A stretch of DNA of 37,329 bases. Origin: a virus. The notes beneath the pieces were generated by a model. The model saw nothing but the letters and a program-made list of their open reading frames with translations, was not told the origin of the DNA and ran no database searches. Both the position numbers and the translations under genes were made by a program. How positions within the stretch are numbered: the first letter of the stretch is position 1; each line of letters starts with the position of its first letter. Below are positions 18,701 through 34,667 of the stretch, piece by piece. The stretch lies in IMG/VR virus record IMGVR_UViG_3300021440_000072, positions 1 through 37,329 of that record; one strand, written 5' to 3'.

Positions 18701-18702
18701 CT

Positions 18703-18897
18703 ATGCAACCACCACTTATAATCGACGGAGTTCGATGTGAAGACGAACAGGCAGTCCGCGACTACGCATTCAATTACGTAAAACAAGGATTCAAACAGGA
18801 TTTCCGGCTCGCGGCCGGAGCATACAAACTCCCCTTCATTCAGTTGGTCGAACTGCTTGATACTACTGGCCACGAGATCATGCAAGCAGGGATATGA
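18703..18897 (+). CDS. Small helical hypothetical protein
   Basis: A 64-residue protein starting two bases after the SSB stop and ending in an ATGA overlap with the next gene. It begins MQPPLIIDGVRCEDEQAV and ends with AYKLPFIQLVELLDTTGHEI, which could be a small helix-turn-helix-like domain, but no clear match is seen. The coupling to SSB suggests an early DNA-metabolism role. Confidence 0.65.
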   Translation: MQPPLIIDGVRCEDEQAVRDYAFNYVKQGFKQDFRLAAGAYKLPFIQLVELLDTTGHEIMQAGI

Positions 18898-19346: not shown

Positions 19347-19672
19347 ACCACATTCCAAAGGCGCTTAATGATGAACTGAACGACGACCCATTTTACACAC
19401 GATGCGTCCTAGGGAGACTAGGTGGTTGCGGGGGACGAATCGAGCGACATCATGCACTGATATTCGCCGGTCGTCAGCTACAAAAGAAATTCTGCATTCT
19501 ACCGACATGCCACGAGCATCACATGCTGGCCAACCGGAAGGATATAAAAGAACGGTTCGATTGGGTTCTCCTCAATCGAGCCACCGACGATGAACTGAAG
19601 GAAATCTCAAAGGCAAAGGACTATATTCGTGAGAGGTCGCGTCTCAATAACATTTATGGGCAATGGACTTAA
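19343..19672 (+). CDS. HNH-type endonuclease-like protein
   Basis: The 109-residue protein has C21 and C29 (CVLGRLGGCGGR), the double histidine ERHHALIFAG (36-37), and ILPTCHEHHMLAN at 53-63, which fit a zinc-stabilised HNH/beta-beta-alpha metal fold. Such enzymes nick or cut DNA and in phages can resolve recombination intermediates or aid packaging. I chose the ATG at 19343, which forms an ATGA overlap with the previous stop; an upstream ATG at 19319 would add eight residues. Confidence 0.7.
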   Translation: MNHIPKALNDELNDDPFYTRCVLGRLGGCGGRIERHHALIFAGRQLQKKFCILPTCHEHHMLANRKDIKERFDWVLLNRATDDELKEISKAKDYIRERSRLNNIYGQWT

Positions 19673-19995
19673 AAGAAAAAGAAAGTGACATACAAAACAC
19701 AATTTGCGAGTACCTTGAAACGAGGCGACGGTGTTTCTTCCGACTTAACAACATACCGGCATTCGACCGGAAAGCAGGGGGCGGAATCACGATGCGTCGA
19801 CTCCCCAAGTACACGCCGAAGGGACTCCCCGACATTGTCGTTATTGCAGGTGGGGCATTTATAGGCCTCGAAGTGAAGACGAAAATTGGTAAACAGTCGA
19901 AGGAGCAGAAGGAATTCGAAGCACTTATTAAAAAACACTCTGGTCAGTATCACGTCGTGCGGAGTGTCGAGGACGTAATCGCAATTGGTCTATGA
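19663..19995 (+). CDS. VRR-NUC domain endonuclease
   Basis: The 110-residue protein is a stand-alone VRR-NUC nuclease: the N-terminal helix carries ESDIQNTICEYLETR, followed by KGLPDIVVI with D57, GLEVKTKIGKQS with E70 and K72, and KEQKEFEALIKKHSGQYHVV at the end. These are the catalytic positions of the PD-(D/E)XK fold. VRR-NUC enzymes in phages are thought to cut branched or flapped DNA during recombination. It overlaps its upstream neighbour by 10 bases and its downstream one by four. Confidence 0.85.
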   Translation: MDLKEKESDIQNTICEYLETRRRCFFRLNNIPAFDRKAGGGITMRRLPKYTPKGLPDIVVIAGGAFIGLEVKTKIGKQSKEQKEFEALIKKHSGQYHVVRSVEDVIAIGL

Positions 19996-20351
19996 AAGAA
20001 ATAGACATTAGTAATATACTTTTCAGTCGACTCGAATCATGCGGTGCGATTAAATGGCACAAAAACGCAAACCATTCGTTTTACCTCAAATTCAGAGACG
20101 TTCGCCTTGGAAGCATTCGAATTGCGAACCATAGAGGGCGGGAACGGTATCACTACACGTACGAAATCTTTGTAAAAGACAAAGATATTGAACAAAAAAT
20201 TGAAGAAATCGTGGAGTCCGTGACCATGAAAGCCAGGTATATCAATGGATTTGACCCAGAAAAATTCATTGTATTCGACCGAGAAACTCGTCAGTACATT
20301 GAGGTCGATAATTTCACGGAGTATAAAAATCGTATTCTTAAAAAACAATAA
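19992..20351 (+). CDS. Conserved phage hypothetical protein
   Basis: A 119-residue protein with SFYLKFRDVRLGSIRIANH followed by GRERYHYTYEIFV, a phrase I recognise from uncharacterised phage proteins in which a beta-rich N-terminal half reads like a DNA- or protein-binding sheet. The C-terminal half is helical and charged. It lies inside the nuclease cluster with overlapping starts and stops. No function is known to me. Confidence 0.7.
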   Translation: MKEIDISNILFSRLESCGAIKWHKNANHSFYLKFRDVRLGSIRIANHRGRERYHYTYEIFVKDKDIEQKIEEIVESVTMKARYINGFDPEKFIVFDRETRQYIEVDNFTEYKNRILKKQ

Positions 20352-20758
20352 TGAAAATCTCACGTAAAAAACCGCCACACTTTTGGCTCATGAAGTTACT
20401 CTACAAATGCGATTGGGGAAACACCGCATTCGGATTCGGCGATAAAATTTACGCCAAGTACACCCTTCCTGTTGACCTCATTACGCACGAGAATACCCAC
20501 TGCGAACAGCAACGATTCTCGTACCTACTGGCATGGGTGTGGCTGGCTAGATACATTGTCTCGCGCTCATTCCGCTACCGTATGGAACTGGAGGCGTACC
20601 AGAATCAGTTCGCCCACTACAGCGCAATCAATCCCCACCAGAAGTACCTCTTCCTCGATCGCATAGCAAAAGATTTGTCTGGAGAAATGTACGGTAATCT
20701 CGTAACGTACGCCGAGGCTCGCGAGAAAATTCAACATGGCCGAAAAACTAAAAAATAA
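20351..20758 (+). CDS. Zincin-like protein with HExxH motif
   Basis: The 135-residue protein has HENTH at residues 46-50 (VDLITHENTHCEQQ) and, about 30 residues later, FRYRMELEAYQNQ with glutamates at 79 and 81. This is the His-Glu-His plus distal Glu arrangement of zinc metallopeptidases. A hydrophobic aromatic helix (YLLAWVWLARYIV) lies between and could associate with membrane. Small zincin-like proteins of this kind occur in many phages with no known substrate. It shares a one-base overlap with the upstream stop. Confidence 0.6.
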   Translation: MKISRKKPPHFWLMKLLYKCDWGNTAFGFGDKIYAKYTLPVDLITHENTHCEQQRFSYLLAWVWLARYIVSRSFRYRMELEAYQNQFAHYSAINPHQKYLFLDRIAKDLSGEMYGNLVTYAEAREKIQHGRKTKK

Positions 20759-21224
20759 AAAGAAACAGAAGCACACGCGCACGCAACGTAAATTCGCGCC
20801 TGAAGTCGTCGAGACCAAAGACTTCAGCGGGAAAATTGTCGAGGGTGACGGAGCAAATAAAAAACTTCAAATTTCGGCGCCAGTCTGGTACCAGCACCAA
20901 TTGAATAAGTTCAAAGTTGGGGAGACGGTAACCATCTACATTAGCTCACGTCGACCAAAACGGTCACTCGCGCAGAACGCCTACTATTGGGGAGTGTACC
21001 TCCCGCTCATTGGCAAAGAGACCGGCGAGCACGATATTGAAGCGTTGCACAAACTCTTCACCGGTAAGTTCCTATCAAGCGGAATCAAACACGTGCTCGG
21101 GCAACCGGTACGAATGACGCGGTCGAGTGCCAGTCTCTCAAAGAGCGACTTCACCGAATACATTATGTCAATTGAAGCCTTGACGGGTATCATGGCACCA
21201 CCAACCGATAACTACTACGACTAG
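20736..21224 (+). CDS. ninB: NinB-like recombination protein
   Basis: The 162-residue protein contains the NinB signature RPKRSLAQNAYYWGVYLPLI followed by GEHDIEALHKLFTGKFL and SASLSKSDFTEYIMSIEAL. Lambda NinB (Orf) is a recombination mediator that works with SSB and can replace host RecFOR functions. The first 25 residues are a Lys/Arg-rich extension that may bind nucleic acid. It closes the recombination module and overlaps the zincin gene by 23 bases. Confidence 0.85.
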   Translation: MAEKLKNKKKQKHTRTQRKFAPEVVETKDFSGKIVEGDGANKKLQISAPVWYQHQLNKFKVGETVTIYISSRRPKRSLAQNAYYWGVYLPLIGKETGEHDIEALHKLFTGKFLSSGIKHVLGQPVRMTRSSASLSKSDFTEYIMSIEALTGIMAPPTDNYYD

Positions 21225-21281
21225 CAAGAATCCACCAAGTTATCCCCAAACGAGACCAGTGCAAAACACCTCATTCAATAG

Positions 21282-21287
21282 TAAAAT
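21282..21287 (+). promoter_or_regulatory. Weak -10-like element after the recombination module
   Basis: TAAAAT lies in the only sizeable gap of this block (21225-21307), 20 bases before the ATG at 21308. No good -35 or Shine-Dalgarno motif is seen. Confidence 0.3.
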
Positions 21288-21307
21288 AAAGGCATAACCA
21301 ATCAATC

Positions 21308-21778
21308 ATGCAAAACATATTTCAATTCGCCATGCACTTACTCTTCGGACGTCGCTGGCACATCTTCGACCTGAAGCAAGGGTACCGAGCCACCATCTAT
21401 ATCAACGACATGGAAGTGGCCATGAACGAGCAACGGGTCAACGATGTTGAAGACCGAAAGGTACAGATGCAAGCAGAACTGAAGGCTCTCGAAAACCGAG
21501 CACCACTCACCGATGAACAGTACCGCGCACTTCAGACTGACCCTTCAGTCGAACTCACGGGCAAGGAATTGTACGAACACAAAAAGAAAATCGACGGTGA
21601 ACGTGCAGAACAGGTCACCGCTATGCGGAACCGGTTGAAGCAAATGGACGACGAGGCGGCGAGTGCCTTCGGGGAACTCCAGAAGGCGTACGCAATCGCG
21701 TACCAGAACCGAGTGAAATACGACTTTATTAGAACCTATAAACCAACAAAGGAATCGTATGCCGACCAAAACAAGTAA
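21308..21778 (+). CDS. Coiled-coil hypothetical protein
   Basis: A 156-residue protein with a short N-terminal beta-like part (RRWHIFDLKQGYRATIYIND). It continues with long charged helices, RKVQMQAELKALENRAP and GERAEQVTAMRNRLKQM, separated by LTDEQYRALQTD. It overlaps the next gene by 20 bases; the next protein also pairs beta strands with coiled coil, suggesting the two may interact. No family is recognised. Confidence 0.65.
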   Translation: MQNIFQFAMHLLFGRRWHIFDLKQGYRATIYINDMEVAMNEQRVNDVEDRKVQMQAELKALENRAPLTDEQYRALQTDPSVELTGKELYEHKKKIDGERAEQVTAMRNRLKQMDDEAASAFGELQKAYAIAYQNRVKYDFIRTYKPTKESYADQNK

Positions 21779-22274
21779 AAAAGCAGACCTGATTGACGAG
21801 TCCGCTATTATCGCCACCACCACGTTTGAACTGAAGAAGTTCGAAATGAAAGGTGACGACCTTCAGTGGCGCATGAAGCTCGAACTGAAAACCCGCCTGA
21901 ACCACACGTTCCGCGAGTACAACGTTCGCTTCAGTGTGAACGAAAAGCCGTTCGAGATTCGCATTGAAGACCTCGAACGGCGCAAGCAGATGATTCAGGA
22001 CGAAGTGCAAATGGCCATTGACGACGGCAGTCCGGCGTCGAACCGCAAGCAACAAATCAAAAACATTGATTTGGAAATCGACCAAGTGCGAGCCGAACTG
22101 GAGCAGATGATTGCCGACCTTCCGGTAATGTCCTTCGATGGCGTCATTGAGAAGCTAGAGTACAAGTACGGAGACACTGTCGTCACGATGATGTTCCCGT
22201 CTGAAGCTCTCGCTGAACTGAACACCCAGCGCGGAATGTTGCCCCATTACAAGATTGAGTTAATTCGAGAATAA
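21759..22274 (+). CDS. Hypothetical protein, beta domain split by a coiled coil
   Basis: The 171-residue protein has beta-rich ends (ATTTFELKKFEMKGDDLQW and GVIEKLEYKYGDTVVTMMF) around a helical hairpin (IEDLERRKQMIQDEV, then IKNIDLEIDQVRAELEQMI). This looks like one small beta domain with an inserted coiled-coil hairpin. The start overlaps the previous gene. No catalytic motif is seen. Confidence 0.65.
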   Translation: MPTKTSKKADLIDESAIIATTTFELKKFEMKGDDLQWRMKLELKTRLNHTFREYNVRFSVNEKPFEIRIEDLERRKQMIQDEVQMAIDDGSPASNRKQQIKNIDLEIDQVRAELEQMIADLPVMSFDGVIEKLEYKYGDTVVTMMFPSEALAELNTQRGMLPHYKIELIRE

Positions 22275-22279
22275 ATTTT

Positions 22280-22675
22280 ATGATTACCACCATTTCAATT
22301 GTTGTACTCTTCCTCCTCGCGGGGTATCTCTTGATTCGTTTGGATATTGTAGAGAAACGAGTTGAAGAAGACGTCATGTACCACCACCGGAATTTGAAAT
22401 CAAACGAAGACCGACTCAATGCTCGACTCGAAGGTTTCGCGAAAAGCATTGACTCTTTGAATCGAAGAGTAACCGACGGATACAAAGACACCTTGGATAT
22501 GTTCAGCGACGTCCGTAAAATACTAAACGAACTCGCAAACATTGCTGGCTATGAAGTAACCGTCGGACGAGTACAGCACCCAGATCACACAACTTGCGGG
22601 TGTAACCGTACCCGAGAGACTCTCGTACTGAAGCCAAAAGTCGCGAAGAAAGTAGCCGTAAAACGTCGACGTTAA
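22280..22675 (+). CDS. Membrane-anchored coiled-coil protein
   Basis: The 131-residue protein has an N-terminal transmembrane helix (ISIVVLFLLAGYLLIRL, residues 5-21), a helical region (about 30-95), a CGC motif in HTTCGCNRT, and a strongly basic C-terminus (KKVAVKRRR). Membrane tethering with a basic tail could place it at the membrane with nucleic acid or acidic proteins bound; that is inference. It lies among accessory genes far from the lysis cassette. Confidence 0.65.
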   Translation: MITTISIVVLFLLAGYLLIRLDIVEKRVEEDVMYHHRNLKSNEDRLNARLEGFAKSIDSLNRRVTDGYKDTLDMFSDVRKILNELANIAGYEVTVGRVQHPDHTTCGCNRTRETLVLKPKVAKKVAVKRRR

Positions 22676-22679
22676 TTCC

Positions 22680-22853
22680 ATGCCAACCTTCATTTTCCAA
22701 CCAAAAGACGAACACACTCTCTGCCCGTACGGTATCTGTGACGGCTCTGGAGTAGTTTCAACTGACGAAGACGACGGTGAAGGTCACACTATGCGAGGAG
22801 TCGGCGAACGTCCATGCCTTTGTAACCCAGTAAAAAGTAATGGAGTGGAATAA
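22680..22853 (+). CDS. DnaJ-type zinc-finger mini-protein
   Basis: A 57-residue frame, with ATG four bases after the previous stop and a 14-base overlap with the next gene. It contains CPYGICDGSGVV and, 22 residues later, RPCLCN, so it carries the CxGxG-like halves of a DnaJ-type zinc finger without a J domain. Short proteins of this type are frequent in phage accessory regions and probably act through protein or RNA contacts. Confidence 0.6.
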   Translation: MPTFIFQPKDEHTLCPYGICDGSGVVSTDEDDGEGHTMRGVGERPCLCNPVKSNGVE

Positions 22854-23082
22854 CCTCAAAAATCTTCGTTGCCCGAAATGCAACGCCAAACTAGTCGAAG
22901 CCCACCACGGCCTCGGCTATGTTTGTTCTATGAAGGAGACCATTGTGCCCTGTCTCTTCAGTATCTCGTACGAACGATTCCAAGAGATTGTGAAAAACAT
23001 TTACCAGCCCCGTCCGAGCCACCCCAATCGCGTCAGAATAATCAGCGAAGAGGAGAACCAACGGGAATTAAACAACCTATAG
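22840..23082 (+). CDS. Zinc-ribbon small protein
   Basis: An 80-residue protein beginning MEWNNLKNLRCPKCNAKLVE. A CPKC knuckle is followed by YVCSMKETIVPCLFSISY, giving a probable four-cysteine zinc site. The rest is helical (ERFQEIVKNIY) and ends NQRELNNL. It overlaps the upstream mini-protein by 14 bases, so these zinc proteins are co-translated. The target is unknown. Confidence 0.65.
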   Translation: MEWNNLKNLRCPKCNAKLVEAHHGLGYVCSMKETIVPCLFSISYERFQEIVKNIYQPRPSHPNRVRIISEEENQRELNNL

Positions 23083-23084
23083 CC

Positions 23085-23366
23085 ATGCAAACAAACTACA
23101 CCGGAGTAATGGAGATACTCACCTGTCCACATGAAGGGTGTCACTGCCTATTCGGGATAGACTCACTAGTGGTCAGTCGTCTCCGAGATTCAAAGGAAAC
23201 GTTCTACTGTACATTTGGTCACTCCCAGTCATTCCGAGGAACTCCAGAAATCGACAAACTGAAGAAGGAACTCGAAGCGAAGACGTCACTGATTACCGCG
23301 CTGACTGGTGAGATTCAAACACTGAAGGAGAAACCAAAGCGCACACGACAGAAGAAGGTAGTATAA
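23085..23366 (+). CDS. Zinc-binding protein with coiled-coil tail
   Basis: The 93-residue protein carries CPHEGCHCLFGIDSLVVSRL, followed by ETFYCTFGHSQSFRG, a phrase I know from many phage proteins where paired Cys and a Cys/His bind zinc. Residues 58-85 form a coiled coil (EIDKLKKELEAKTSLITAL). The C-terminus is basic (PKRTRQKKVV). I start it at 23085, two bases after the previous stop; a longer frame upstream overlaps the whole previous gene and is rejected. Confidence 0.7.
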   Translation: MQTNYTGVMEILTCPHEGCHCLFGIDSLVVSRLRDSKETFYCTFGHSQSFRGTPEIDKLKKELEAKTSLITALTGEIQTLKEKPKRTRQKKVV

Positions 23367-23367
23367 T
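23362..23367 (+). promoter_or_regulatory. Leaderless -10 promoter of the small terminase gene
   Basis: TATAAT is followed after seven bases by the ATG at 23375, so transcription would start at or within one or two bases of the start codon. It overlaps the stop of the previous gene. No Shine-Dalgarno motif is possible on this transcript. Confidence 0.65.
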
Positions 23368-23374
23368 ATCGTTA

Positions 23375-23854
23375 ATGGCAACCACTAAAAAAGAAAAAGA
23401 CGAATACACTGCTCTCCTTCAGAAGATGAAGCCAGCACAGATTCGCTTTGTTACTCTCTACCTCGGAGGAGAAGACGGAAAGTGTTTCAACAACGCAACA
23501 CTGGCATACATTCGAGCATTCGATATTCAATGTCGTACAACCAAAGATGCAAAAGGAGAATACGACAAGAAGTATTTGTCCGCAAAACAGATGGGTTATG
23601 CTCTATTGACTAAAGTTGACATTCAACGTCTGAAACACAACATGCTACTGGAGCAGGGATTCAAGCCAGAGAATATCAAAAAGCGATACGCAGAACTGGC
23701 CAATCAAAACAAAAACCTTCCCATTGCTCTTACTGCTACAGATCGTATGGCGAAGATTGCCGGAGTAATCGCAGACGACCCGACCAAGGTAGATATTCCA
23801 CAACTCACCGAATTGACCGAGCACATTAAAAACATTCTCACACCCAAGCGATAA
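23375..23854 (+). CDS. terS: Small terminase subunit
   Basis: The 159-residue protein has the plan of phage small terminases. An N-terminal helix-turn-helix (PAQIRFVTLYLGGEDGKC, FNNATLAYIRAFDI, KQMGYALLTKVDIQRL) is followed by helical KPENIKKRYAELANQNK and a segment ALTATDRMAKIAGVI typical of Terminase_2-like proteins. It would recognise phage DNA for packaging. It is unusual in lying about 4.8 kb upstream of the large subunit at 28632, with accessory and RNA genes between. Confidence 0.75.
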   Translation: MATTKKEKDEYTALLQKMKPAQIRFVTLYLGGEDGKCFNNATLAYIRAFDIQCRTTKDAKGEYDKKYLSAKQMGYALLTKVDIQRLKHNMLLEQGFKPENIKKRYAELANQNKNLPIALTATDRMAKIAGVIADDPTKVDIPQLTELTEHIKNILTPKR

Positions 23855-24021
23855 TGAATCACGAAACACCAAAGCCAGGGAGTCCTGAAGCAATGAAGCT
23901 CGGGTGTACTTGCCCTGAAGACGTAAACTATGGGGGTCAAGGATTCATGCTCAATGGTGAATCGAAGTTCTGGTATGCAAAGGACTGTCCGGTTCACGTT
24001 GTATTCGATAAACTGAAATGA
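23854..24021 (+). CDS. Small conserved phage cysteine protein
   Basis: A 55-residue frame overlapping the small terminase stop by one base (TAATG) and the next gene by four. It reads PGSPEAMKLGCTCPEDVNYG and later FWYAKDCPVHV. This GSPEAxxxGCTCP...CPxH form recurs in small phage proteins of unknown role, with three cysteines and a histidine as a likely zinc site. The exact fit between neighbours supports it as real. Confidence 0.65.
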   Translation: MNHETPKPGSPEAMKLGCTCPEDVNYGGQGFMLNGESKFWYAKDCPVHVVFDKLK

Positions 24022-24452
24022 AAAAGAAACTCACCGCAAAACAGAAGTGGGGGAAGAAGCAGGTATTCCCTATATTCCTCGACCCGTATCGCCAAGAGTG
24101 CATTGTAGTTGTAAATGGAAATATGGGAGACGCTGTCACCTACCTAAAGAAACTCAAAACTAAAAACGCTGACGCTCTCGTTAAAGAAATCATGGAGTAT
24201 GACGATTGGAAGACCGGAAAGAATACTGAAGGTGGTGCGTCTATCTGGCTCGACTTCAAATGCGGGTACATCATGATATTCGACCATGAGGACAACTGGA
24301 AAGAGACACTCGCAAACGTTGGGCATGAGTGTATTCACCTCTGCAATGCCGTTCTCCATAGAGCCGGACTCAAACTGACACGTGATAGTGAGGAAGCATT
24401 CACGTATCTCCACACCAAAGCATTCCTCGATATTAGCCATAAGATTTATTAA
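24018..24452 (+). CDS. Second zincin-like protein
   Basis: The 144-residue protein has HECIH at residues 103-107 (TLANVGHECIHLCNAVL) followed by LTRDSEEAFTYLHTKAFL, whose glutamates at 125-126 are candidates for the third zinc ligand. This is the HExxH plus distal Glu pattern of phage zincin-like proteins. The N-terminal 90 residues are a mixed alpha/beta region with YIMIFDHEDNW. Substrate and role are unknown; it is unrelated in detail to the zincin at 20351. Confidence 0.65.
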   Translation: MKKKLTAKQKWGKKQVFPIFLDPYRQECIVVVNGNMGDAVTYLKKLKTKNADALVKEIMEYDDWKTGKNTEGGASIWLDFKCGYIMIFDHEDNWKETLANVGHECIHLCNAVLHRAGLKLTRDSEEAFTYLHTKAFLDISHKIY

Positions 24453-24456
24453 AAAT

Positions 24457-24573
24457 ATGATATTTCGTTCATTTATGTGCATACCCCCGACGGCACAAGC
24501 AGACCCAATGATTATTCACCTCGTTCAAACTTCGGTTGATTCAGTATCAGCAATAAAAATTACAGCGCAATGA
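24457..24573 (+). CDS. Possible 38-residue protein
   Basis: A short frame fills the gap between two genes, beginning four bases after one stop and overlapping the next ATG by ATGA. It starts MIFRSFMCIPPTAQADPM and is otherwise featureless. Spacing is the only support. Confidence 0.4.
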   Translation: MIFRSFMCIPPTAQADPMIIHLVQTSVDSVSAIKITAQ

Positions 24574-25157
24574 AAACAGAAAACCAATTGAGTGCCCACC
24601 AGTTCAAAGCTATGTATGAGAAGGAAGGTATCGACCTCGCCACTCTTGGGTGCGTTATGCTCGACACAGAACCAATCCCAAAGCCACTCATGTACGAGCG
24701 GGAGATTCCGGAAGCGTTCTACACCTCACCAGACGAAAAGAAGTTCTGGATTAAAGGGTATGTCGCTGACCAAACGCCTCACGTTACCTTGCTCTATGGA
24801 CTCATGACACCAGCCAACGAGCAACCCGAGAACATTGCGACCGTTATGGAAGGGTGGTCACTCGATTCAGTCGTCATTGAAGAGTTCGGGTTCTTTGAAT
24901 CTACTATGAAGGACGAGCCGTACTATTGCATTGTCGGGCATATCGAAGTGACCTCAAAGCTCCTCGAAGGCCACGAGCGACTTCAGTTCCTGCCCCATAT
25001 CGACACTTTCGCAGGGTACCGGCCACATATCACGATTGCGTACGTGGTTAAAGATGAAGCCATTCGTGATCGAGTGATTAACGACATGAACAAAATGTAC
25101 GCGGGTAAAGAATTAACAGTCAGTCGCAAACTTAATCTCGGAGGGAACAAAGCATAA
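24570..25157 (+). CDS. 2H phosphoesterase (LigT/Acb1-type fold)
   Basis: The 195-residue protein has the two HxT motifs that define 2H phosphoesterases: H71-V-T73 in TPHVTLLYG and H153-I-T155 in YRPHITIAYV, 82 residues apart. The repeated beta strands around them fit the bilobal fold. These enzymes hydrolyse 2',5' or cyclic phosphodiester bonds. T4 Acb1, a member of this superfamily, degrades the cyclic nucleotides of CBASS defence, and others act on RNA ends. Anti-defence is plausible given the accessory location, but tRNA or RNA repair cannot be excluded. Confidence 0.75.
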   Translation: MKTENQLSAHQFKAMYEKEGIDLATLGCVMLDTEPIPKPLMYEREIPEAFYTSPDEKKFWIKGYVADQTPHVTLLYGLMTPANEQPENIATVMEGWSLDSVVIEEFGFFESTMKDEPYYCIVGHIEVTSKLLEGHERLQFLPHIDTFAGYRPHITIAYVVKDEAIRDRVINDMNKMYAGKELTVSRKLNLGGNKA

Positions 25158-25271
25158 ATGCCAATGAATCCCGTTGACTATTATCTAAACGGAGAGCCAC
25201 GTCCCTTTCGGAATAATTTTATTACCACTAGGGGTTGGCCTACACCAAGACGTAAATATAAAAACAAATGA
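25158..25271 (+). CDS. Possible 37-residue basic protein
   Basis: A short frame beginning at the stop of the 2H gene and overlapping the next ATG by four bases. It reads MPMNPVDYYLNGEPRPF and ends PTPRRKYKNK, a basic tail. It fits exactly between its neighbours; no family is recognised. Confidence 0.45.
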   Translation: MPMNPVDYYLNGEPRPFRNNFITTRGWPTPRRKYKNK

Positions 25272-25798
25272 TAATCACCACACTAAAGAAGCTCGTTGAC
25301 CAGTACAGTATCAACACTATAGAGGTGAATGTTGGAGAAGGAGTGAACCCCATGGCATTCGAGATTGATTCCCCCGACTACCGAGAACAGCAAAACTACC
25401 TCGTGAAAGGCGAGTACCGAATCCGCCAAGATTTTGCCACCGGTAAGCAGATTCTGTGGGTAGACCGGCTCGAAGAAGAGTTCACGAAACCAGCAGAAGA
25501 AGAAATCGCCGAAGACGAACCAACGGCTGAAGAGATTGCTATTATCGAAGAGCACTTCAATACGCCAATCACTGCTATTTTCTTTCACCGGCAGTCACTC
25601 CAATCAACCGCACTCGACATTTCACGTAAAGAAGTTCCTCACTACGCAGAGTCAGTCGTAAATGCCTACGCAGAAACATTCGGCGAAACCTCACTCGAAG
25701 AATTTGCAATGGTAGAGATTGATTGGAAGAACCAAGCCGTATCACTCGTCTCGATACCACAGCCTACCGTGGAGCCTGAACCAGACAGTGCGCTATAA
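25268..25798 (+). CDS. Hypothetical acidic protein
   Basis: The 176-residue protein has an N-terminal half with strands (YREQQNYLVKGEYRIR, GKQILWVDRLEEEF), a very acidic linker (PAEEEIAEDEPTAEE), and a C-terminal half (ITAIFFHRQSLQSTAL onward) ending in a Pro/Glu tail. No motif is recognised. The -10 of the next transcription unit overlaps its stop codon. Confidence 0.65.
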   Translation: MIITTLKKLVDQYSINTIEVNVGEGVNPMAFEIDSPDYREQQNYLVKGEYRIRQDFATGKQILWVDRLEEEFTKPAEEEIAEDEPTAEEIAIIEEHFNTPITAIFFHRQSLQSTALDISRKEVPHYAESVVNAYAETFGETSLEEFAMVEIDWKNQAVSLVSIPQPTVEPEPDSAL

Positions 25799-26665: not shown

Positions 26666-26736
26666 CGCGGAGTAGAGAACTGGTATCTCGCAAGGTTCAT
26701 TCCCTTGAAAAAGTGGTTCGATTCCACTCTCCGCAA
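26666..26736 (+). tRNA. tRNA with CAU anticodon, initiator (fMet) type
   Basis: A full cloverleaf can be drawn. Acceptor CGCGGAG/CTCCGCA has six pairs plus a C1xA72 mismatch. The D arm is GAGA/TCTC with A14, G18, G19 and A21. The anticodon stem CAAGG/CCTTG has loop TTCATTC, with CAU at 26698-26700. The variable loop is four bases. The T arm AGTGG/CCACT has loop TTCGATT. The discriminator is A, and CCA is not encoded. C1xA72 and A11:U24 are hallmarks of bacterial initiator tRNA. Only two of the usual three G-C pairs are present in the lower anticodon stem (A29:U41), and U37 is unusual. Elongator Met or lysidine-modified Ile2 is less likely. Confidence 0.8.
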
Positions 26737-26758: not shown

Positions 26759-27847
26759 ATGAAAACAGAATTCACCACCGGCGCAGGGATAGATTATCGA
26801 ACAGCAGACCAGAAGGCACAGGACTTCCGTCCACAAGAGGCCTTCGCGTCCGTCGGAGTCCCCGTCGAGTGGAAACCAAAGAGTATCGACGAAATGGAAA
26901 AGAATATCAAAGCGACGTCTATCTCCCAAGGACAGACGTCTCGTTGCGTTTCCGAGTACGCAGGAATTGCTCTTGAAATGGCAGAGTTCGCAGAGACGGG
27001 CAAGCGTGTCGTATTCTCTCGCCGTGACGTGTATTGCCGACGTGCCAATCGTCCAGCCGAGGGTATGAGTATGCCTGACCTCTTCAAAATCATGCGTGAC
27101 GGCACGTGCCTCGAATCACAGCTCCCAAGTACCGCTACCAAAGAATCAGTGATTAACGAGGCGTATACGGTCACTGACGAGATGCTGAAAGCCCGTAAGC
27201 AGTACAGTGCGGGAACATCATTCACGTGGGACACCTTCACCATTAACGATATTGCTCTCCAAATTCAGAACGGAACACCCGTCTGTCTCTTCTGGTACTT
27301 CGATAACACCTCACGGGAAGAGTGGTGGAATACCAATCCGAAAGTGGTAAACACGAAAATTGATTTATACACACCGAGTACCGGCAGACACCAGTGCACA
27401 GCCATTGATTTCTGCACGGTAAACGGGGTAAAACACCTCCTCGTGATGGATTCAGCAGGTCAGGGTACTGGACTCGGGAAACAGGGCAATTTGCGCCTTG
27501 TAAGCGAATCGTTTTTCAAAGCTCGTTGCTACGGGGCTGGCTTTACGATTGACCAGAAAGACCTCGACTTCAAACCGGAGCCAGTTATTCGCTACACCTT
27601 CACTAAAAACCTCCGTAATGGTATGGAAGATGCTGACGTACAGGTGCTTCAGAAGATTCTCGTCCTCGAAGGGTGCCTCGCCATTAAGACTCCGACTCGC
27701 TACTACGGTGGAATGACACAGAATGCAGTCGCCAAGCTCCAAGAGAAGTACGCCGACGAGATTCTGAAGCCTCTCGGACTCACTCGGGGGACTGGTTTGT
27801 TCCTCGATGCCACTCGCGCTTTTATCAATAAGAAATACGGAGCCTAA
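26759..27847 (+). CDS. Peptidoglycan-targeting lysin: papain-like cysteine peptidase plus PG-binding domain
   Basis: The 362-residue protein has a papain/C39-like N-terminal domain: C63 in SQGQTSRCVSEYAG (with an upstream Gln for the oxyanion hole), H211 in TGRHQCTAIDFC, and D231 in LLVMDSAGQG. The C-terminal domain (about 280-360) is a PG_binding_1-type module: DADVQVLQKILVLEG, YYGGMTQNAVAKLQEKYADE, then ILKPLGLTRGTGLF and ATRAFINKKYG. This variant, with KYADEILxPLGLTxGTG, is one I associate with Patescibacterial wall proteins. It probably cuts peptide cross-links as a second endolysin or virion lysin. There is no signal peptide. It follows the tRNA by 22 bases. Confidence 0.7.
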   Translation: MKTEFTTGAGIDYRTADQKAQDFRPQEAFASVGVPVEWKPKSIDEMEKNIKATSISQGQTSRCVSEYAGIALEMAEFAETGKRVVFSRRDVYCRRANRPAEGMSMPDLFKIMRDGTCLESQLPSTATKESVINEAYTVTDEMLKARKQYSAGTSFTWDTFTINDIALQIQNGTPVCLFWYFDNTSREEWWNTNPKVVNTKIDLYTPSTGRHQCTAIDFCTVNGVKHLLVMDSAGQGTGLGKQGNLRLVSESFFKARCYGAGFTIDQKDLDFKPEPVIRYTFTKNLRNGMEDADVQVLQKILVLEGCLAIKTPTRYYGGMTQNAVAKLQEKYADEILKPLGLTRGTGLFLDATRAFINKKYGA

Positions 27848-28258
27848 ATGCAAGCAACAAAATTCCCCCGAGCGTACCGAGCGTGGAATCTCGATACACA
27901 GACCATGCTTATGCCTGATGAACTAGTAAAAACTGGCTTTACCATTACGCCTGATGGTCTCCCAAGCTACCGTGAGATGCCGTTTGCAGTGGTACTCATG
28001 TGGTTCTCGGGTAAACAAGACGTCAATAACCAGCCAATTTTTGAAGGCGACATTTGTAAAGTGCAGATCAAGAATGAATTCGGCTCGATGATTGTCGACT
28101 ATGGCATCATGCGGTGGGAATCAAACATGAGTGCATTCATGCTTCAGGTACCGTCACTGAATGCTGGACAGATGCTCGACGTACAGTCAGTTGAATTACT
28201 CGGGAATGAGTTCCAGAACCCTGAACTCGTGCCACTCGTTAAACTTCCCGTGAAATAA
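27848..28258 (+). CDS. YopX-family protein
   Basis: The 136-residue protein follows the YopX plan: YRAWNLDTQTMLMPDEL near the start, YREMPFAVVLMWFSGKQDVN, then PIFEGDICKVQIKN, DYGIMRWES in the middle, and SVELLGNEFQNPELV at the end. YopX proteins are common in phages and have no established function. It starts at the lysin stop (TAAATG) and shares one base with the IF-1 gene (TAATG), so it is probably co-translated with it. Confidence 0.85.
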   Translation: MQATKFPRAYRAWNLDTQTMLMPDELVKTGFTITPDGLPSYREMPFAVVLMWFSGKQDVNNQPIFEGDICKVQIKNEFGSMIVDYGIMRWESNMSAFMLQVPSLNAGQMLDVQSVELLGNEFQNPELVPLVKLPVK

Positions 28259-28458
28259 TGGACGAGAAAATCAAAGGTGAGGTGCTGGAAATGCTCCCCA
28301 ACGTACGATTCCGCGTAGAGTTGGAGAATGGACGGGTAATTCTCTGCTACCTTGCGGGGAAACTGCAAAAGAATTTCATTAAAGTGATTATCAGCGACAA
28401 GGTACTGGTCGTCGTGCCAAGTACCGGTGATATTGGTAGAATTATCAAGCGATACTAA
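28258..28458 (+). CDS. infA: Translation initiation factor IF-1 homologue
   Basis: The 66-residue protein aligns with bacterial IF-1 (about 72 residues) along its length. KGEVLEMLPNVRFRVELENG corresponds to the most conserved stretch of IF-1, with LAGKLQKNFIKVIISDKVLV and GDIGRIIKRY following. It is a single S1-like OB fold. IF-1 occupies the ribosomal A site during initiation and helps select initiator tRNA and start codon. The basic GKMRKN loop of host factors reads GKLQKN here, losing one Arg. It lies in a TAATG-coupled string between YopX and a basic mini-protein. Host-derived or phage-specialised origin cannot be decided here. Confidence 0.92.
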   Translation: MDEKIKGEVLEMLPNVRFRVELENGRVILCYLAGKLQKNFIKVIISDKVLVVVPSTGDIGRIIKRY

Positions 28459-28631
28459 TGGCACGACAGGCAAAAGCACTCGTTCAACCAGAGTCAGGCT
28501 ACCGTCACAGGGAACACCGCTCCAAGAAAACAAGTAAGCCGTTCTACCAATTCAAAAAACGCATGAAAAAACGTATAGCTCGACTGCAAGAGAAGCAACC
28601 AAACGGTCGCAAAGGTAAGTGGAAAACCTAA
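28458..28631 (+). CDS. Highly basic 57-residue protein after IF-1
   Basis: The frame overlaps the IF-1 stop by one base (TAATG) and ends directly before the large terminase ATG. About 40 percent of residues are Lys, Arg or His: YRHREHRSKKTSKPF, FKKRMKKRIARLQEK and GRKGKWKT. The composition is like that of small ribosomal proteins or RNA-binding peptides, but I match no family. Coupling to IF-1 suggests a possible ribosome or RNA role; a packaging or DNA role with terminase is the alternative. Confidence 0.65.
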   Translation: MARQAKALVQPESGYRHREHRSKKTSKPFYQFKKRMKKRIARLQEKQPNGRKGKWKT

Positions 28632-30125
28632 ATGGACATCATTGACCAAGCAATCCTCGATTTAGTGTCCCCGCAAATGCGCGAGGATATTTTTCGTCTC
28701 GTCCGCCAGATGTACAAGAACGAAGACGGCACACCGGTACTCCTCACTCCCCTTCAGTGCTGTATCTTTGCGATTATCTCCATGAAGCTCCACCCGCGCG
28801 TGCACTGCATGATATTTACGCGGTACGGCAAGTCGTTTGTGGTTGCGCTCGCCGTGCTGACACGTGTTGCGACCTTTCCCGAGAAGTGGGCAATCGTAGC
28901 GGGGAGTAAAGAGAAAGCGAAAATCATCATGGGCTACATTAACAGCCACATTTTTGATTCCGAGTACACGGCCGCGAAATTCCGTATGGAGCGCGGGGAC
29001 AGTGCAGAAGCGATTCGTCGGAATCGAAACAAAAACCACATTTCGTTTGACCTCGGGAATGGTCTCATGAGTGAAGTGTTCGTATGTTCAGCCAAAGAAG
29101 CGATTGGGTTTGGTGCGCCAAACATTATCGAAGACGAATCGTCACTGATTGATAACAGTGAACACTCCCTCGTCATGCGTATGCTCGGAGACAACCCGAA
29201 CGAAAACTTCCTGTTCAAGATTGGTAACCCGTTCAACCGGAACCACTTCCTCGATTCGTACAATGACCCGAAGTATCTGAAGCTCGTGATTGACTGCTAC
29301 CAAGGGATTGAAGAGGGACGTATGAACCAGTCGACGATTGAAGAAAACCGTCCGTACTCATTCTTCAGTGTGCTCTACGAGTGCAAGTTTCCGTCTGCTA
29401 CATCGGTTGATGATAAAGGGTGGGCATACCTACTCACGGAAGACGACATTAAAGCGGCCACCGCACGCTGGAACAAAGCCGAGCACTTCGGAAAACGTCG
29501 ACTCGGGAATGATATTGCCCGTGGTGGCCGTAACTTCAATGTGTGGGCACTCCGTGGTGAAAACTACGCGACTATTTTGCAGAAAGACCACGACGACGAT
29601 TTGATGAGTGTGGCCGGAAAGACGCAGGGGTTCATGCGAACCCACCGCATTGACGAAGAAGACGTCTCACTCGACGACGTAGGAGTCGGGGGTGGCGTCG
29701 CTGACCGTATGAAAGAGGCGGGGTACAAAAACGTAAACAAAGTGCGTGTTGGTGACCCTGCTACCGAGAAGGTAATTGGCTATAACCCGAAAACTAAAAA
29801 AGACGAAGAGATGCCCGAGTATGCAAACCTCCGTGCTCAACTCTACGCAGGACGCAATGGTCTCGCCAATTGGGTGAAGCGTACTGGTGCTCTCGACCCC
29901 GAGGTTGACTGGTCTGAACTCACGCGCATTCGCTACAAAAAGAACGGAGCAGGACTCACAGTGATTGAATCAAAAGAGGATATGCGTGGACGTGGCGAAG
30001 AGTCTCCCGACGTGGCTGACGGTCTCATGCTCACGTTCTTTGATGCAACTGGTGGGGGTAATAAAGTGGACTTCAAACCAGTCGACCCTGCTATAATTCT
30101 TCAACAAGGACAGAAGTTGTGGTAG
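28632..30125 (+). CDS. terL: Large terminase subunit
   Basis: The 497-residue protein has the ATPase and nuclease halves of a packaging motor. Walker A is the deviant TRYGKS (63-68), Walker B is NIIEDESS (164-171), and the coupling motif includes FKIGNP. The RNase H-like nuclease acidic residues are D294 in LGNDIARGG, D348/D349 in LDDVGVGGG, and D460/D463 in ESPDVADGL. It would translocate DNA into the procapsid and cut concatemers. It begins immediately after the basic mini-protein, with portal downstream. Confidence 0.92.
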   Translation: MDIIDQAILDLVSPQMREDIFRLVRQMYKNEDGTPVLLTPLQCCIFAIISMKLHPRVHCMIFTRYGKSFVVALAVLTRVATFPEKWAIVAGSKEKAKIIMGYINSHIFDSEYTAAKFRMERGDSAEAIRRNRNKNHISFDLGNGLMSEVFVCSAKEAIGFGAPNIIEDESSLIDNSEHSLVMRMLGDNPNENFLFKIGNPFNRNHFLDSYNDPKYLKLVIDCYQGIEEGRMNQSTIEENRPYSFFSVLYECKFPSATSVDDKGWAYLLTEDDIKAATARWNKAEHFGKRRLGNDIARGGRNFNVWALRGENYATILQKDHDDDLMSVAGKTQGFMRTHRIDEEDVSLDDVGVGGGVADRMKEAGYKNVNKVRVGDPATEKVIGYNPKTKKDEEMPEYANLRAQLYAGRNGLANWVKRTGALDPEVDWSELTRIRYKKNGAGLTVIESKEDMRGRGEESPDVADGLMLTFFDATGGGNKVDFKPVDPAIILQQGQKLW

Positions 30126-30142
30126 AATTTTAATATACATGA

Positions 30143-31834
30143 ATGGATAATAACAAAATCTCGTACGACGAAAATCAAATGTCGATTCGTACGAAAAAGT
30201 ATTGTGACGGAGCCACACAGTATCAGGAGCGACGACACCCCGACTGGCGTGAGACATACTCACTCTACCGAGATAAAACCCAGTTGAACCGCCTGACCCA
30301 GCGTCAGAGCGTGAATGTGCCACTGATGAAAGAGACCATTCGTACTCTCCTCTCAAAGATGGACGAGTTCCCTGACCTCTATTTCGAGTCACTCGGAAAT
30401 GACAAACAAAAAGAAATTTTCCTCAATGAATACTGGAAGTGGTGGGTAGTCGAGGACAACTTCGAGATTAAAGATATTGTCGATAAAAAACAGGAAGGAC
30501 TGTATGGTCGCTCGACCATGAAGTTGAATCTGTTTGACGGACGCCCAACCGCGGAAGTGCTCGAACCGTACGACTGGATTGTTGACCGGTACGCAGACCC
30601 ATCTGATCTTGACGGGACTGCTATGTACCAAGGCCACCTGAACATTTTCCGGTCACTCTCACAGCTTGAATCAAACCCACTCTACGATAAAGACGTAGTG
30701 AACCGAATCAAACTCCAGTACGCCGAAGCCATGGGACTTGCTCGTTCAGAAGAAAACATTCGTCAGATGCAAGCGCGCAACCAGCGTCTCGAAGACATGG
30801 GACTCTGGCAAGTTGAAGCTCCAGAACTCGGTGAAGCCGTCGTTCGATTGACGGAGCACTACATGAAGGTCTGGTCACCAGAGCGCAAGAAGCTCGTGAT
30901 TTGGTACCGTGTAACAGTCGACGAGTTTGTGCTGATTATGAAGCCACTCGAAGATTTGCTCGCCATTAACTTCTTCCCATTCTCCTCATGGGCTGACGAC
31001 ATTGAAAAAACCGACGTGTACTCTGATGGTGTGGGGGACATTGTCCGTACACCAAACAAGATTCTGAACTCGTGGTTCTCACAACTTGTGGAAAACCGTA
31101 CGCTCCGAAACTTCGGTATGACGCTCTACGACGCGACTGCTTCAGAGAAGTGGATTCCACAGACGTACGAGCCAGTGCCATGGGGCTGGTACCCAACCGC
31201 CGGAGACCCTAACAAGACGACCAAGCGTATCGACATTCCAGAACTCTCTGAAAGTCTCGACGAAATGTCATTCGTAATTGGTATGGTCGAGAAAGCTACT
31301 GCGTCAACCGCTACCGAGAAGGGCGTACAGGAAGGCAAAGACGTCACGCTCGGCCAAGTGAAACTCATGCTCCAGTCGTCTAATGACCGTATCACGTCAG
31401 TCGCGAAGTTCTACCGCGTGGCTCGCCGACAGTTCGGTGAGAAGTGGTACAAGTTCCTCATGGCCAACGAGCAGTGGATTAAGCCCGTCGAGATTTACAA
31501 GAAATCGTCGAAGGGGAACTACTTCAAAGAGACAGTCTCGACGACTGACTGGAAAGATGAAGCGGGCTACGTGTGCAAGGTGACCTCAACCGCTGAACGT
31601 GCCCAGAAGAATATCGAAGCGGTGCAGAAAATCCAGGCCGTTGCTGGTATGTTCCCGAACAACGTTCCGCTGGAGAAAATCATGAAGAAAAAGGCTCTCG
31701 ATTTGATTGACGGTCTCTCCCAGGAGGAGATTGATGAGGTTATGAACTTTGAAGCCCAGACACCACCAGCTAATCCGGCTCTCCCCGCTAATCCAAGTAA
31801 TCCCCAAATTACACCCACGGCACCGGTTGGATAG
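30143..31834 (+). CDS. Portal protein
   Basis: The 563-residue protein directly follows terL and has portal character: an N-terminal helical region (GATQYQERRHPDWRETYSLY, NVPLMKETIRTLLSKM), a wing with PYDWIVDRYADPSD, FPFSSWADDIEKTDVYSDGV, GDIVRTPNKILNSWFSQL, and a long helical stem/barrel region with TLGQVKLMLQSSNDRI. The C-terminus is Pro/Asn-rich. It forms the dodecameric channel for DNA. A weak extended -10 (TGgTAGAAT) lies 14 bases before its ATG. Confidence 0.85.
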   Translation: MDNNKISYDENQMSIRTKKYCDGATQYQERRHPDWRETYSLYRDKTQLNRLTQRQSVNVPLMKETIRTLLSKMDEFPDLYFESLGNDKQKEIFLNEYWKWWVVEDNFEIKDIVDKKQEGLYGRSTMKLNLFDGRPTAEVLEPYDWIVDRYADPSDLDGTAMYQGHLNIFRSLSQLESNPLYDKDVVNRIKLQYAEAMGLARSEENIRQMQARNQRLEDMGLWQVEAPELGEAVVRLTEHYMKVWSPERKKLVIWYRVTVDEFVLIMKPLEDLLAINFFPFSSWADDIEKTDVYSDGVGDIVRTPNKILNSWFSQLVENRTLRNFGMTLYDATASEKWIPQTYEPVPWGWYPTAGDPNKTTKRIDIPELSESLDEMSFVIGMVEKATASTATEKGVQEGKDVTLGQVKLMLQSSNDRITSVAKFYRVARRQFGEKWYKFLMANEQWIKPVEIYKKSSKGNYFKETVSTTDWKDEAGYVCKVTSTAERAQKNIEAVQKIQAVAGMFPNNVPLEKIMKKKALDLIDGLSQEEIDEVMNFEAQTPPANPALPANPSNPQITPTAPVG

Positions 31835-31836
31835 GG

Positions 31837-31842
31837 TATACT
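31837..31842 (+). promoter_or_regulatory. -10 box between portal and next gene
   Basis: TATACT lies 12 bases before the ATG at 31855, in a 20-base gap. No -35 is visible. The resulting mRNA would have a leader of about five bases. Confidence 0.4.
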
Positions 31843-31854
31843 AAAGATACCTGA

Positions 31855-32199
31855 ATGATACTCGAAGAATTACTACAAAAATACGGAGTCGACCGCAACA
31901 CTCTCACTGCGGCCGAATCAGAGGTTCTCGACAAGTGGGCGAAGATGCTGGCTATCAAGCAACTCACCCTCTCGGACATTGAGAACCACGTGAACGCCAT
32001 GATTGAGTCACTCGAACGAGAACTCACCGGTCACGAAAACCCACCTGTAACGTTTGCGAATCTCGTATTCCGCGGACGACGAGAACGCCACCTCAAAGCT
32101 CGACTGCAAAATTACATTATGCTCCGAGACTTTGTCACTTCACCAGAGCGTGCTCGCCAGTACATAGAGAAGCAGTTGAGTAGCTTCACAGCTACATAG
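31855..32199 (+). CDS. Small helical protein between portal and scaffold
   Basis: A 114-residue, almost fully helical protein (LTAAESEVLDKWAKML, LTLSDIENHVNAMIESLERE, RARQYIEKQLSSF) with a basic patch FRGRRERHLKARLQNY. The position after portal is often occupied by small head-assembly or packaging accessory proteins. No family is recognised. Confidence 0.7.
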   Translation: MILEELLQKYGVDRNTLTAAESEVLDKWAKMLAIKQLTLSDIENHVNAMIESLERELTGHENPPVTFANLVFRGRRERHLKARLQNYIMLRDFVTSPERARQYIEKQLSSFTAT

Positions 32200-32213
32200 T
32201 GGTGAAGTATAAT
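32185..32213 (+). promoter_or_regulatory. Sigma70-type promoter before the head-assembly genes
   Basis: TTCACA (32185-32190) and TATAAT (32208-32213) are separated by exactly 17 bases. It overlaps the previous stop and lies 22 bases before the ATG at 32236. It would drive the small protein, scaffold and coat genes. Confidence 0.7.
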
Positions 32214-32235
32214 TATTCGCATAGCTCATACAAAA

Positions 32236-32559
32236 ATGGATTCAACATCACAAGAAATGTTCGAGACTATTTTGGCCAAAGACCAAGCTAGTCTGACGGA
32301 CGACGAAAAGGGATTCCTCATGGCACGACGTTCGTACATGAACGACGACCAGAAGAAGCGATACGCTGAAATGATTGACTTGCACGAGAAGGGGGAACTC
32401 TTCAGTGCTCCAGTCGAAGACGAGAATGATTTGAAGTCACTCTCTCTCGCACGATTGAAGGAAATCGCCAAAGTAGAAAACGTTGAAGTAAAAGGATTGA
32501 AGAGTGTCGCCGAGTTCGCCCGAGCAATTCAGGCCACTCGTGACGAAAAAGAAGCGTAG
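32236..32559 (+). CDS. Small protein with Rho-N/HeH-like C-terminal domain
   Basis: The 107-residue protein has a helical N-terminal part (DKGFLMARRSYMNDDQKKRY) and a C-terminal segment KSLSLARLKEIAKVENVEVK followed by GLKSVAEFARAIQ. That segment resembles the Rho N-terminal or HeH/LEM-type helical domains found on small phage head proteins and thought to bind nucleic acid or proteins. It sits just before the scaffold gene. The domain call is tentative. Confidence 0.6.
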   Translation: MDSTSQEMFETILAKDQASLTDDEKGFLMARRSYMNDDQKKRYAEMIDLHEKGELFSAPVEDENDLKSLSLARLKEIAKVENVEVKGLKSVAEFARAIQATRDEKEA

Positions 32560-32616
32560 TCCATTGTCAGAAGCATAATGCCAAACCCCTGAAACACGGG
32601 ACGGTCACAATACACA

Positions 32617-33438
32617 ATGAACCCAGTAGAATTTAAGCCAGAAGGGGAAGCTCGTGTTATCATTAACGCATTCCCACGGCAAACCACCCCAGAGGTGACG
32701 CCTCCAGTTACTCCGGTCACTGTAGAAAAAACTCCGGAAAAAGGTGAAGAGAAGACACCAGAACCGACGCCAGTCGTGGAACCTGTTCCACCAGTAACGC
32801 CTCCAGCCCAACCGGTCGTACCGACGGCACCCGAGGCGAAACCAGAGCCTGACTACAAATTAAAGTTTTCAGAATCTACTCGGCGCAATCAGATCGTTGA
32901 ATCTCAATTCAAGGAACTGCAAAAAATTCTCGGGGATATTACACAACAGGAAGTCCCAACTGACGAAGAAATGATGGTAAAGTTCAGCGATTGGGAGTAT
33001 CTCTCTGACCGCGAAAAGAATGCCGAGCGTCGTCTCGCCATTCTCGAAGCCCGAGAGAACAAGCGTACGTTGGAAATGAAGCGACTTGAACAAGAACGTG
33101 AGACTCTCACGAAACTCGACGAGTACATTAGTACCGAGCCACGGTTGAAAGGAAAAGAGAACGAGTTCTATGAATTCGCAACTCGTCCAAATAATCAAGG
33201 CGCGTCAGTCGAAGTCTTGCTCAATGCCTTCCTCTTCGAGACTACGCCAATCACCGCCGTTGAAACTGTCGTCCCACCCGTGGAGACGCCCCCTGCGCTC
33301 GAACGCGGAAACCCGAGTGGAGACATGCCACCAGAAACCCGAAAAGACGGCCAGATGTCAGACGAAGAACTGACTCGCCTTCGAACCACCGACCATAAAA
33401 AGTACAACGATATGGTACGGCGCGGGTTGATAAAGTAA
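32617..33438 (+). CDS. Probable scaffolding protein
   Basis: The 273-residue protein lies directly before the coat gene, the usual scaffold position. Residues about 22-78 are Pro/Val/Thr/Glu-rich and disordered. Residues 85-180 are coiled-coil-like (SQFKELQKILGDITQQEV, AERRLAILEARENKRTLEMK). The C-terminus is charged and ends KKYNDMVRRGLIK, a basic helix like those by which scaffolds bind coat protein. Composition and position support the call; there is no family-specific motif. Confidence 0.7.
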   Translation: MNPVEFKPEGEARVIINAFPRQTTPEVTPPVTPVTVEKTPEKGEEKTPEPTPVVEPVPPVTPPAQPVVPTAPEAKPEPDYKLKFSESTRRNQIVESQFKELQKILGDITQQEVPTDEEMMVKFSDWEYLSDREKNAERRLAILEARENKRTLEMKRLEQERETLTKLDEYISTEPRLKGKENEFYEFATRPNNQGASVEVLLNAFLFETTPITAVETVVPPVETPPALERGNPSGDMPPETRKDGQMSDEELTRLRTTDHKKYNDMVRRGLIK

Positions 33439-33476
33439 TCGTTACAAAGACTCCACAGTTTTAAGATTCGCATTGA

Positions 33477-34565
33477 ATGGCTACCTACGGTACCAACGTG
33501 GGAGAGAAGTTCGCCAAGAACACTCTCCGAATCTTCTTCCAGCGAGCAATCGCACCTGACATCACGAACCAGGACTACGAAGGAGAAATTAAGGGAGGTG
33601 GTGCAGACCGCTTGAACGTTCTTACGTTCGGTGCGCTCACCCTGAAGAACTACACCGGTGTCGCTATGACAGTGGACACACCAACAGAATCAGAAGGTGT
33701 ACTGATTGTGAACCAGAAGAAAGCGTACTACTTCCAGGTTGAAAGTTTTGCGAAGTTCTCTTCGTATGCTGAAGACCCAGCGAGTACACTGATTGATACA
33801 GCCGGTAAAGTACTTGCTCGTACAGTCGACAACTTCGTCCTCGGTCTCTACACGAAAGTGGGAGCCGGTAACCGAGTTGGTACTGATTACACGACTGGAA
33901 CCGTAACAGTTACGACTGGTACTGGTGCAGTAGTGGGAGTCGGTACAACCTTTACTGCGGCCATGGTAGGTCTTGGATTCAAGGCTACTGGACACACAAA
34001 GTGGTACCGCGTAAAGACTTTCACAGATGCCACAAACATTGTGATTGAAGACGACATGGACGACCAGACCTCTGCCTACACTGGTGGAGCAATCTCGGGA
34101 GGTTCTGCCTATACCATCGAAGCCGTTACCGTAATCACTGTAACGAAGACCACCATCTTCGATTACCTCGTGGATATGAAGACCAAGCTCGATTCGGCTG
34201 AAATTCCAGCCGAAGACCGTTGGGCGGCGTTTCCTTCTATCGTAGCGAACTTGCTCCTCAAATCAGCACAGCTCCAAACCGCAGTTGATACTGCTTACGA
34301 GAATGTGATTCAGAAGGGTATTGTTGGTTACGTAGCAGGGTTCAAGCTCTACTCGAACGAACAGGTAGCTGGTAACAACACCACTGGTTACTACTGTCTC
34401 GCTGGCCATAAAGCCTTTATCACTATGGCAATGGCATTCACTGAATCGGGCATGGAACCGTTCATCGGTGGATTCGGTAACAACTTCAAAGGATTGACTT
34501 GTTACGGTGCGAAAGTGATTGATGAACGACGCAAAGCAGGTACATACTTGTTTGCAAAGGTTTAA
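33477..34565 (+). CDS. Major capsid (coat) protein
   Basis: The 362-residue protein follows the scaffold and has an HK97-fold coat layout: N-terminal NTLRIFFQRAIAPDITNQDY, an extended-loop-like GEIKGGGADRLNVLTFG, the spine region with VDNFVLGLY, and a C-terminal part with MAFTESGMEPFIGGFGNNF and VIDERRKAGTYLFAKV. Residues about 140-217 are an inserted beta domain (GTTFTAAMVG, then YRVKTFTDATNIVIEDD) that also occurs in the tail protein at 1352. It would form the icosahedral head, with the insertion probably on the outer surface. Confidence 0.85.
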   Translation: MATYGTNVGEKFAKNTLRIFFQRAIAPDITNQDYEGEIKGGGADRLNVLTFGALTLKNYTGVAMTVDTPTESEGVLIVNQKKAYYFQVESFAKFSSYAEDPASTLIDTAGKVLARTVDNFVLGLYTKVGAGNRVGTDYTTGTVTVTTGTGAVVGVGTTFTAAMVGLGFKATGHTKWYRVKTFTDATNIVIEDDMDDQTSAYTGGAISGGSAYTIEAVTVITVTKTTIFDYLVDMKTKLDSAEIPAEDRWAAFPSIVANLLLKSAQLQTAVDTAYENVIQKGIVGYVAGFKLYSNEQVAGNNTTGYYCLAGHKAFITMAMAFTESGMEPFIGGFGNNFKGLTCYGAKVIDERRKAGTYLFAKV

Positions 34566-34627
34566 CCTCTAATCGAGGTATAACCCTACTCTTCCTCTCT
34601 CTACATGAGGGAGGAAGGAATAGGGTT
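34565..34627 (+). terminator. Two stem-loops after the coat gene
   Basis: ACCTC/GAGGT (34565-34579) forms a small hairpin starting at the stop codon. A much longer one spans 34582-34627, with perfect AACCCTA/TAGGGTT ends and a pyrimidine-rich/purine-rich, mostly paired middle around a TACAT loop. There is no terminal T run, so it may be a weak terminator, a processing site or a 3' stabiliser of the abundant coat mRNA. Confidence 0.55.
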
Positions 34628-34667
34628 GTCCTCCTTCAGAGCATTATTAAGATTAACCAAAACTCAA

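Follow-up and report, generated by a model that had tools for sequence, protein, structure and literature searches.

A phage-encoded initiator-type tRNA with U37 and an excess of A before presumed late start codons

The window analyzed here, the whole 37,329-base stretch of IMG/VR record IMGVR_UViG_3300021440_000072, is a phage contig with genes for a terminase, a capsid protein, a Sak4-like recombinase, SSB, and a LysM endolysin-like protein; no near relative was found among cultured phages. A tRNA gene at 26666..26736 (+ strand) lies between two blocks of genes. Upstream of it is a presumed early block (14069..25798, +) encoding a replication initiator-like protein, the Sak4-like protein, an exonuclease, SSB, and others, with a mixture of A and T before the start codons. 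Downstream are presumed late genes (26759..36971, +), including the terminase (28632), the portal (30143), and the capsid (33477), whose starts are nearly all preceded by A (exceptions are 26759 and 34605, both with C). The remaining presumed late block (1146..14012, +) contains tail genes, the LysM endolysin-like gene, and a 2277-residue protein, again with A before the starts. Shine-Dalgarno (SD) sequences were detected at 3 of 38 window genes, which is the background level (10%), and Bacteroidia do not use SD (PMC9976891). We infer a Bacteroidota host from two indications, this absence of SD and the company in which the anticodon loop of the tRNA is found elsewhere (see below).

ARAGORN calls a tRNA-Met(CAT) at 26666-26737, and 26666-26736 reaches 50.1 bits with the Rfam tRNA model (cut-off 29); a whole-window cmscan at the gathering threshold missed this hit, which was found in a shorter stretch, apparently an effect of the fast filters. 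Segmentation yields positions 1-73 with no encoded CCA: an acceptor stem (CGCGGAG/CTCCGCA) followed by U8 and A9; a D stem (GAGA/UCUC) with a 7-base loop; G26; an anticodon stem (CAAGG/CCUUG) enclosing the loop UUCAUUC (26696..26702, +; U32 U33 C34 A35 U36 U37 C38, with U37 at 26701 and C38 at 26702); a variable region (AAAA); a T stem (AGUGG/CCACU); and A73. A preliminary description of this DNA had reported the initiator features C1xA72 and A11:U24 together with two departures, A29:U41 and U37, and segmentation places all of them on the + strand: C1 (26666) is mismatched with A72 (26735), A11 (26676) is paired to U24 (26688), and A29 (26693) is paired to U41 (26705). Initiator identity is further backed by every formylation determinant that can be checked in the sequence, with G2:C71, C3:G70, G4:C69, and A73 all present (determinants taken from PMC9976931 and PMC7949028).

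The gene shares these features, the CAU anticodon, and the pairs G30:C40 and G31:C39 with canonical tRNA-fMet (E. coli metZWV/metY), but differs from it in having UUCAUUC in place of CUCAUAA (U32, U37, and C38), in A29:U41, in its short D loop, and in being phage-encoded. Two of the loop changes, U32 for the usual C32 and C38 for the usual A38, are additional to those described earlier. Because 29:41 is A:U, leaving two of the three G-C pairs expected at 29:41, 30:40, and 31:39, and because the loop departs from CUCAUAA with its A37, the gene is, as judged from its sequence, an initiator-type variant rather than a standard tRNA-fMet. Identity as tRNA-Ile2, with CAU read as lysidine-AU and t6A37 as an isoleucine determinant (PMC9976931), is ruled out by U37, C38, and the C1xA72 mismatch. 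A29:U41 was considered as a key feature and rejected: of 161 IMG/VR initiators whose loop is canonical, 85 have A:U at 29:41, 34 have U:A, and 42 have G:C, so the A:U pair, common among phage initiators, is unremarkable.

Several unrelated phage groups carry the UUCAUUC loop, in a total of 36 distinct tRNAs. The D-arm (A11:U24) and the loop were part of the search patterns, so that 11:24 is not an independent test in this wider set; the 1:72 position and the other stems are. All 36 have a non-pairing combination at 1:72 (CA in 11, CT in 11, AA in six, CC in four, TT in two, AG in one, and TC in one), and the remaining stems are intact in every one, with just 12 G-U pairs in total. The 30:40 pair is G:C in all 36, and 29:41 is A:U in 27. 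The loop is shared by close relatives of the window (loci L002, L004, L038, L040, L112, and L115-L117), by a family of phages unrelated to it (L111/L113), and by a large set of Bacteroidales Mu-like prophages in which the tRNA always lies between the small terminase (TerS) and protease genes; isolated cases were identified on Sedimentisphaerales, Cerasicoccus, and Agitococcus contigs. This recurrence of loop and mismatch in related and unrelated phages rules out chance or artefact.

The same data bear on whether the gene is an unused relic or decoy, a reading that the preliminary description had linked to lack of expression. The divergent loop and the missing CCA would suit such a gene, but divergent copies preserve the 1:72 mismatch together with their stems, the position between TerS and protease is kept in divergent Mu-like prophages, and the start sites described below fit the tRNA; we therefore regard a relic or decoy as very improbable. 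One contig (IMGVR_UViG_3300047463_000043) contains two copies of the tRNA (L118, 56-127, and L111, 5889-5960) 30.3 kb apart, each within about 1 kb of flanking DNA that is 92% identical between the copies. Duplication of an attachment site was rejected here, the second copy being part of the 92% identical 1-kb repeat; the doubling may reflect assembly of two strains or a real duplication.

Positions 32, 37, and 38 vary in other phage initiators as well, including those of cultured phages. Initiator-type tRNAs in the latter have the loops AUCAUAG, UUCAUAA, UUCAUUA, UUCAUAC, and UUCAUGC and are mostly filed as tRNA-Met (L460, 1501-1575, in Bacteroides phage LoVEphage; L461, L465, L467, and L470-L473).

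The variant does not appear to have been taken over from a host. A canonical CUCAUAA initiator is also present, by the same pattern search, in most of the 21 variant-carrying genomes. Of 295 genomes of the Bacteroidales (the order of Xylanibacter), 2 contain the variant pattern, both of them seed genomes that carry it in a prophage; the canonical pattern was found in 70 of 80 genomes sampled from that order. UUCAUUC is rare outside prophages in Bacteroidales. This rarity, together with the canonical initiator present in most carriers, leaves the earlier proposal that the departures reflect a divergent host initiator unsupported.

The base at position 37 of the initiator has been proposed to take part in an extended codon-anticodon interaction. 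According to the passages of PMC4587860 and PMC9229432 that cite Esposito et al. (2003), a U immediately before the start codon (position -1) favours initiation, an effect put down to a fourth pair involving base 37; the proposal is also cited in PMC9841429. By the same logic as U(-1):A37, an initiator with U37 would therefore favour A at -1. Compared with that proposal, both partners appear to be swapped here, A at -1 and U37 in place of U at -1 and A37, and the setting is natural phages.

We compared the -1 base in tRNA carriers with that in control relatives, defined as phages with a related capsid and without a U37 tRNA (362 genes); start sites and early and late classes are predicted, late genes being taken from position and gene content. 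In the tRNA-less relatives T precedes 208 of 362 starts (57%) and A precedes 112, against A before 44 of 50 late genes (88%), T before four, and C before two in the tRNA-carrying phages of the window family. For A versus T, this difference has a Fisher p of 2.6e-14. This value counts genes singly, although those of a clade are not independent of each other: the whole window clade represents about one evolutionary event, and the main comparison therefore amounts to approximately two clear events and one weak one. A comparable swing occurs at -1 only and is absent from neighbouring positions. The D-arm pattern, which recovers the 3 positive records, found no initiator-type tRNA in the 29 complete control records.

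The picture is the same when homology is used to fix the starts of orthologous genes, with A at 34 and T at seven in the tRNA clade and A at 32 and T at 76 outside it. The portal start is preceded by A in four of four cases in the clade versus T in nine of 11 outside, and the capsid start by A in five of five versus T in 35 of 47. Partial contigs of the window clade are A-rich at -1, and the next relatives (L043 and L045) are T-rich. One phage with a capsid 64% identical to the window's (L052) has an initiator-type tRNA (2017-2093) with the loop CUCAUAA, U29:A41, and A31:U39, and T at -1 in six of 10 genes, which fits A37. The effect is weaker in the Mu-like prophages, where A precedes 71 of 96 orthologous starts with the tRNA versus 71 of 136 without it; their terminase gene is an exception, having kept T at -1. 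The suggestion in the preliminary description that the departures might alter start-codon selection is thus supported in narrower form, as covariation of the -1 base with base 37.

Carrier genomes also differ internally. In the window family, genes upstream of the tRNA (replication genes, presumed early) have A at 27 starts, T at 24, C at four, and G at four, versus the 44 A, four T, and two C of the downstream, mainly structural genes presumed late (A versus T, p = 1.6e-5; window alone, p = 0.003; L040 alone, p = 0.03). The contrast survives removal of starts that directly follow a stop codon (p = 0.0007), so the A at -1 does not simply come from adjacent stop codons. A similar contrast is found in the L111/L113 family (late, A at 26 and T at three; early, A at six and T at six; p = 0.01). 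Proteins of this family have solely a weak match (29%) to the window's, to the Sak4-like gene; one of its lysis-region genes has a 41% match in another member of the window family.

These contrasts weigh on the possibility that the tRNA is a real initiator but that A before late genes has nothing to do with base 37, reflecting instead the start-site taste of a particular host or of genes with strong expression. The window clade is a single clade, probably with one kind of host, and genes of Prevotella-type hosts already have approximately 50% A at -1, both of which would be compatible with such confounding. However, the early and late genes that differ are in the same genomes, late genes of the tRNA-less relatives have T, the pattern is repeated in the unrelated L111/L113 family, and genes of Alistipes-type hosts have only 5-17% A at -1. 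We consider this explanation distinctly unlikely, although somewhat less so than a relic.

A pyrimidine at position 37 should weaken stacking on the anticodon, and the relation between bases 37 and -1 is not a general rule, because three other U37 loci (L186, L145, and L209, the last in an SD-using phage) have no excess of A at -1 and initiators with G37 are accompanied by no excess of C, the latter in few genes. A rule extending to any base was accordingly set aside, unseen for G37 and C in these few genes; if real, the relation may be confined to SD-less hosts. The SD-using Erwinia phage phiEa21-4 (loop UUCAUUA) was left out of the -1 comparison on account of its many tRNAs and its different mode of initiation. 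Pairing of C38 with G at -2 was ruled out, as G is not enriched at -2.

Taken together, we think it somewhat probable that the tRNA is a working initiator of late infection that reads AAUG by extended four-base pairing and favours late phage genes. Charging by host MetRS is expected (anticodon CAU and A73), as is formylation by the host transformylase (1x72 mismatch, G2:C71, C3:G70, G4:C69, and A11:U24). U37 would lie opposite mRNA base -1 and form a fourth pair with A (AAUG), where canonical A37 would pair with U (UAUG). The shift of late start sites from U to A at -1 would then favour late mRNAs for the phage initiator, and the fourth pair might carry greater weight than usual in hosts without SD. 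The phage initiator would be made and used late in infection, with late start sites adapted to it. We infer expression, charging, formylation, physical pairing between -1 and 37, and preferential late translation from sequence data.

The main rival is nuclease evasion alone, in which the loop is altered so that a VapC-type host nuclease spares the phage copy; the phage initiator would replace a destroyed host pool, and the -1 base would have drifted later or would differ for another reason. VapC cuts tRNA-fMet at A38-C39 (PMC4105405), and it is precisely A37 and A38, beside that bond, that are replaced here by U37-C38. Loop changes are already documented in phage tRNAs (van den Berg et al. 2023, PMC10264068); the present loop, too, departs from the host version where a nuclease is known to cut, and the variation of other phage initiators at 32, 37, and 38 also agrees with evasion. 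According to that study, however, phages generally avoid tRNA-fMet when it is the molecule that the nuclease attacks, in contrast to the present case of an initiator whose single loop sequence recurs together with matching starts. Evasion alone makes no prediction of A at -1 limited to late genes and leaves the constancy of UUCAUUC unexplained, since many other changes would protect; matches to the VapC(fMet) family were found in 2 of 21 carrier genomes, below the cut-off. As a complete account we judge evasion unlikely, if less so than the host-taste explanation, but it could be the origin of the loop change. Preferential translation of late genes and survival of a nuclease-resistant initiator are compatible as the primary gain, because a change driven by resistance would also create a new pairing preference.

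The purpose of tRNA genes in phages has long been debated, and for an initiator tRNA ordinary codon usage offers no explanation. The reading of the tRNA as a late AAUG initiator suggests that this phage may initiate its own proteins by a route that is partly private. We see roughly even chances that this extends to a natural, partly orthogonal initiation code in phages of SD-less bacteria, with base 37 and the late -1 base exchanged together, late AAUG read best by the phage initiator, and UAUG mRNAs dependent on the host initiator. If true, this would be a natural co-change of an initiator tRNA and the start sites that it serves, giving a late, partly private entry to translation in SD-less bacteria, and it would provide direct evolutionary evidence for the -1:37 fourth pair, which has so far rested on few experiments. 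No paper dealing with phage-encoded tRNA, initiator tRNA, and start codon together was found in a search of the open-licence literature, which gives weak support for novelty.

Two further features lie upstream of the tRNA. Positions 26503-26602 (+) form one long predicted hairpin (-54.1 kcal/mol, z -5.9), which matches no Rfam family and is absent from this place in relatives. About 1.5 kb upstream of the tRNA, 24570-25157 (+) encodes a protein of 195 residues that resembles 2H phosphoesterases (PF13563, 32.5 bits) and, weakly and below the cut-off, the anti-CBASS protein Acb1; the gene might serve in counter-defence.
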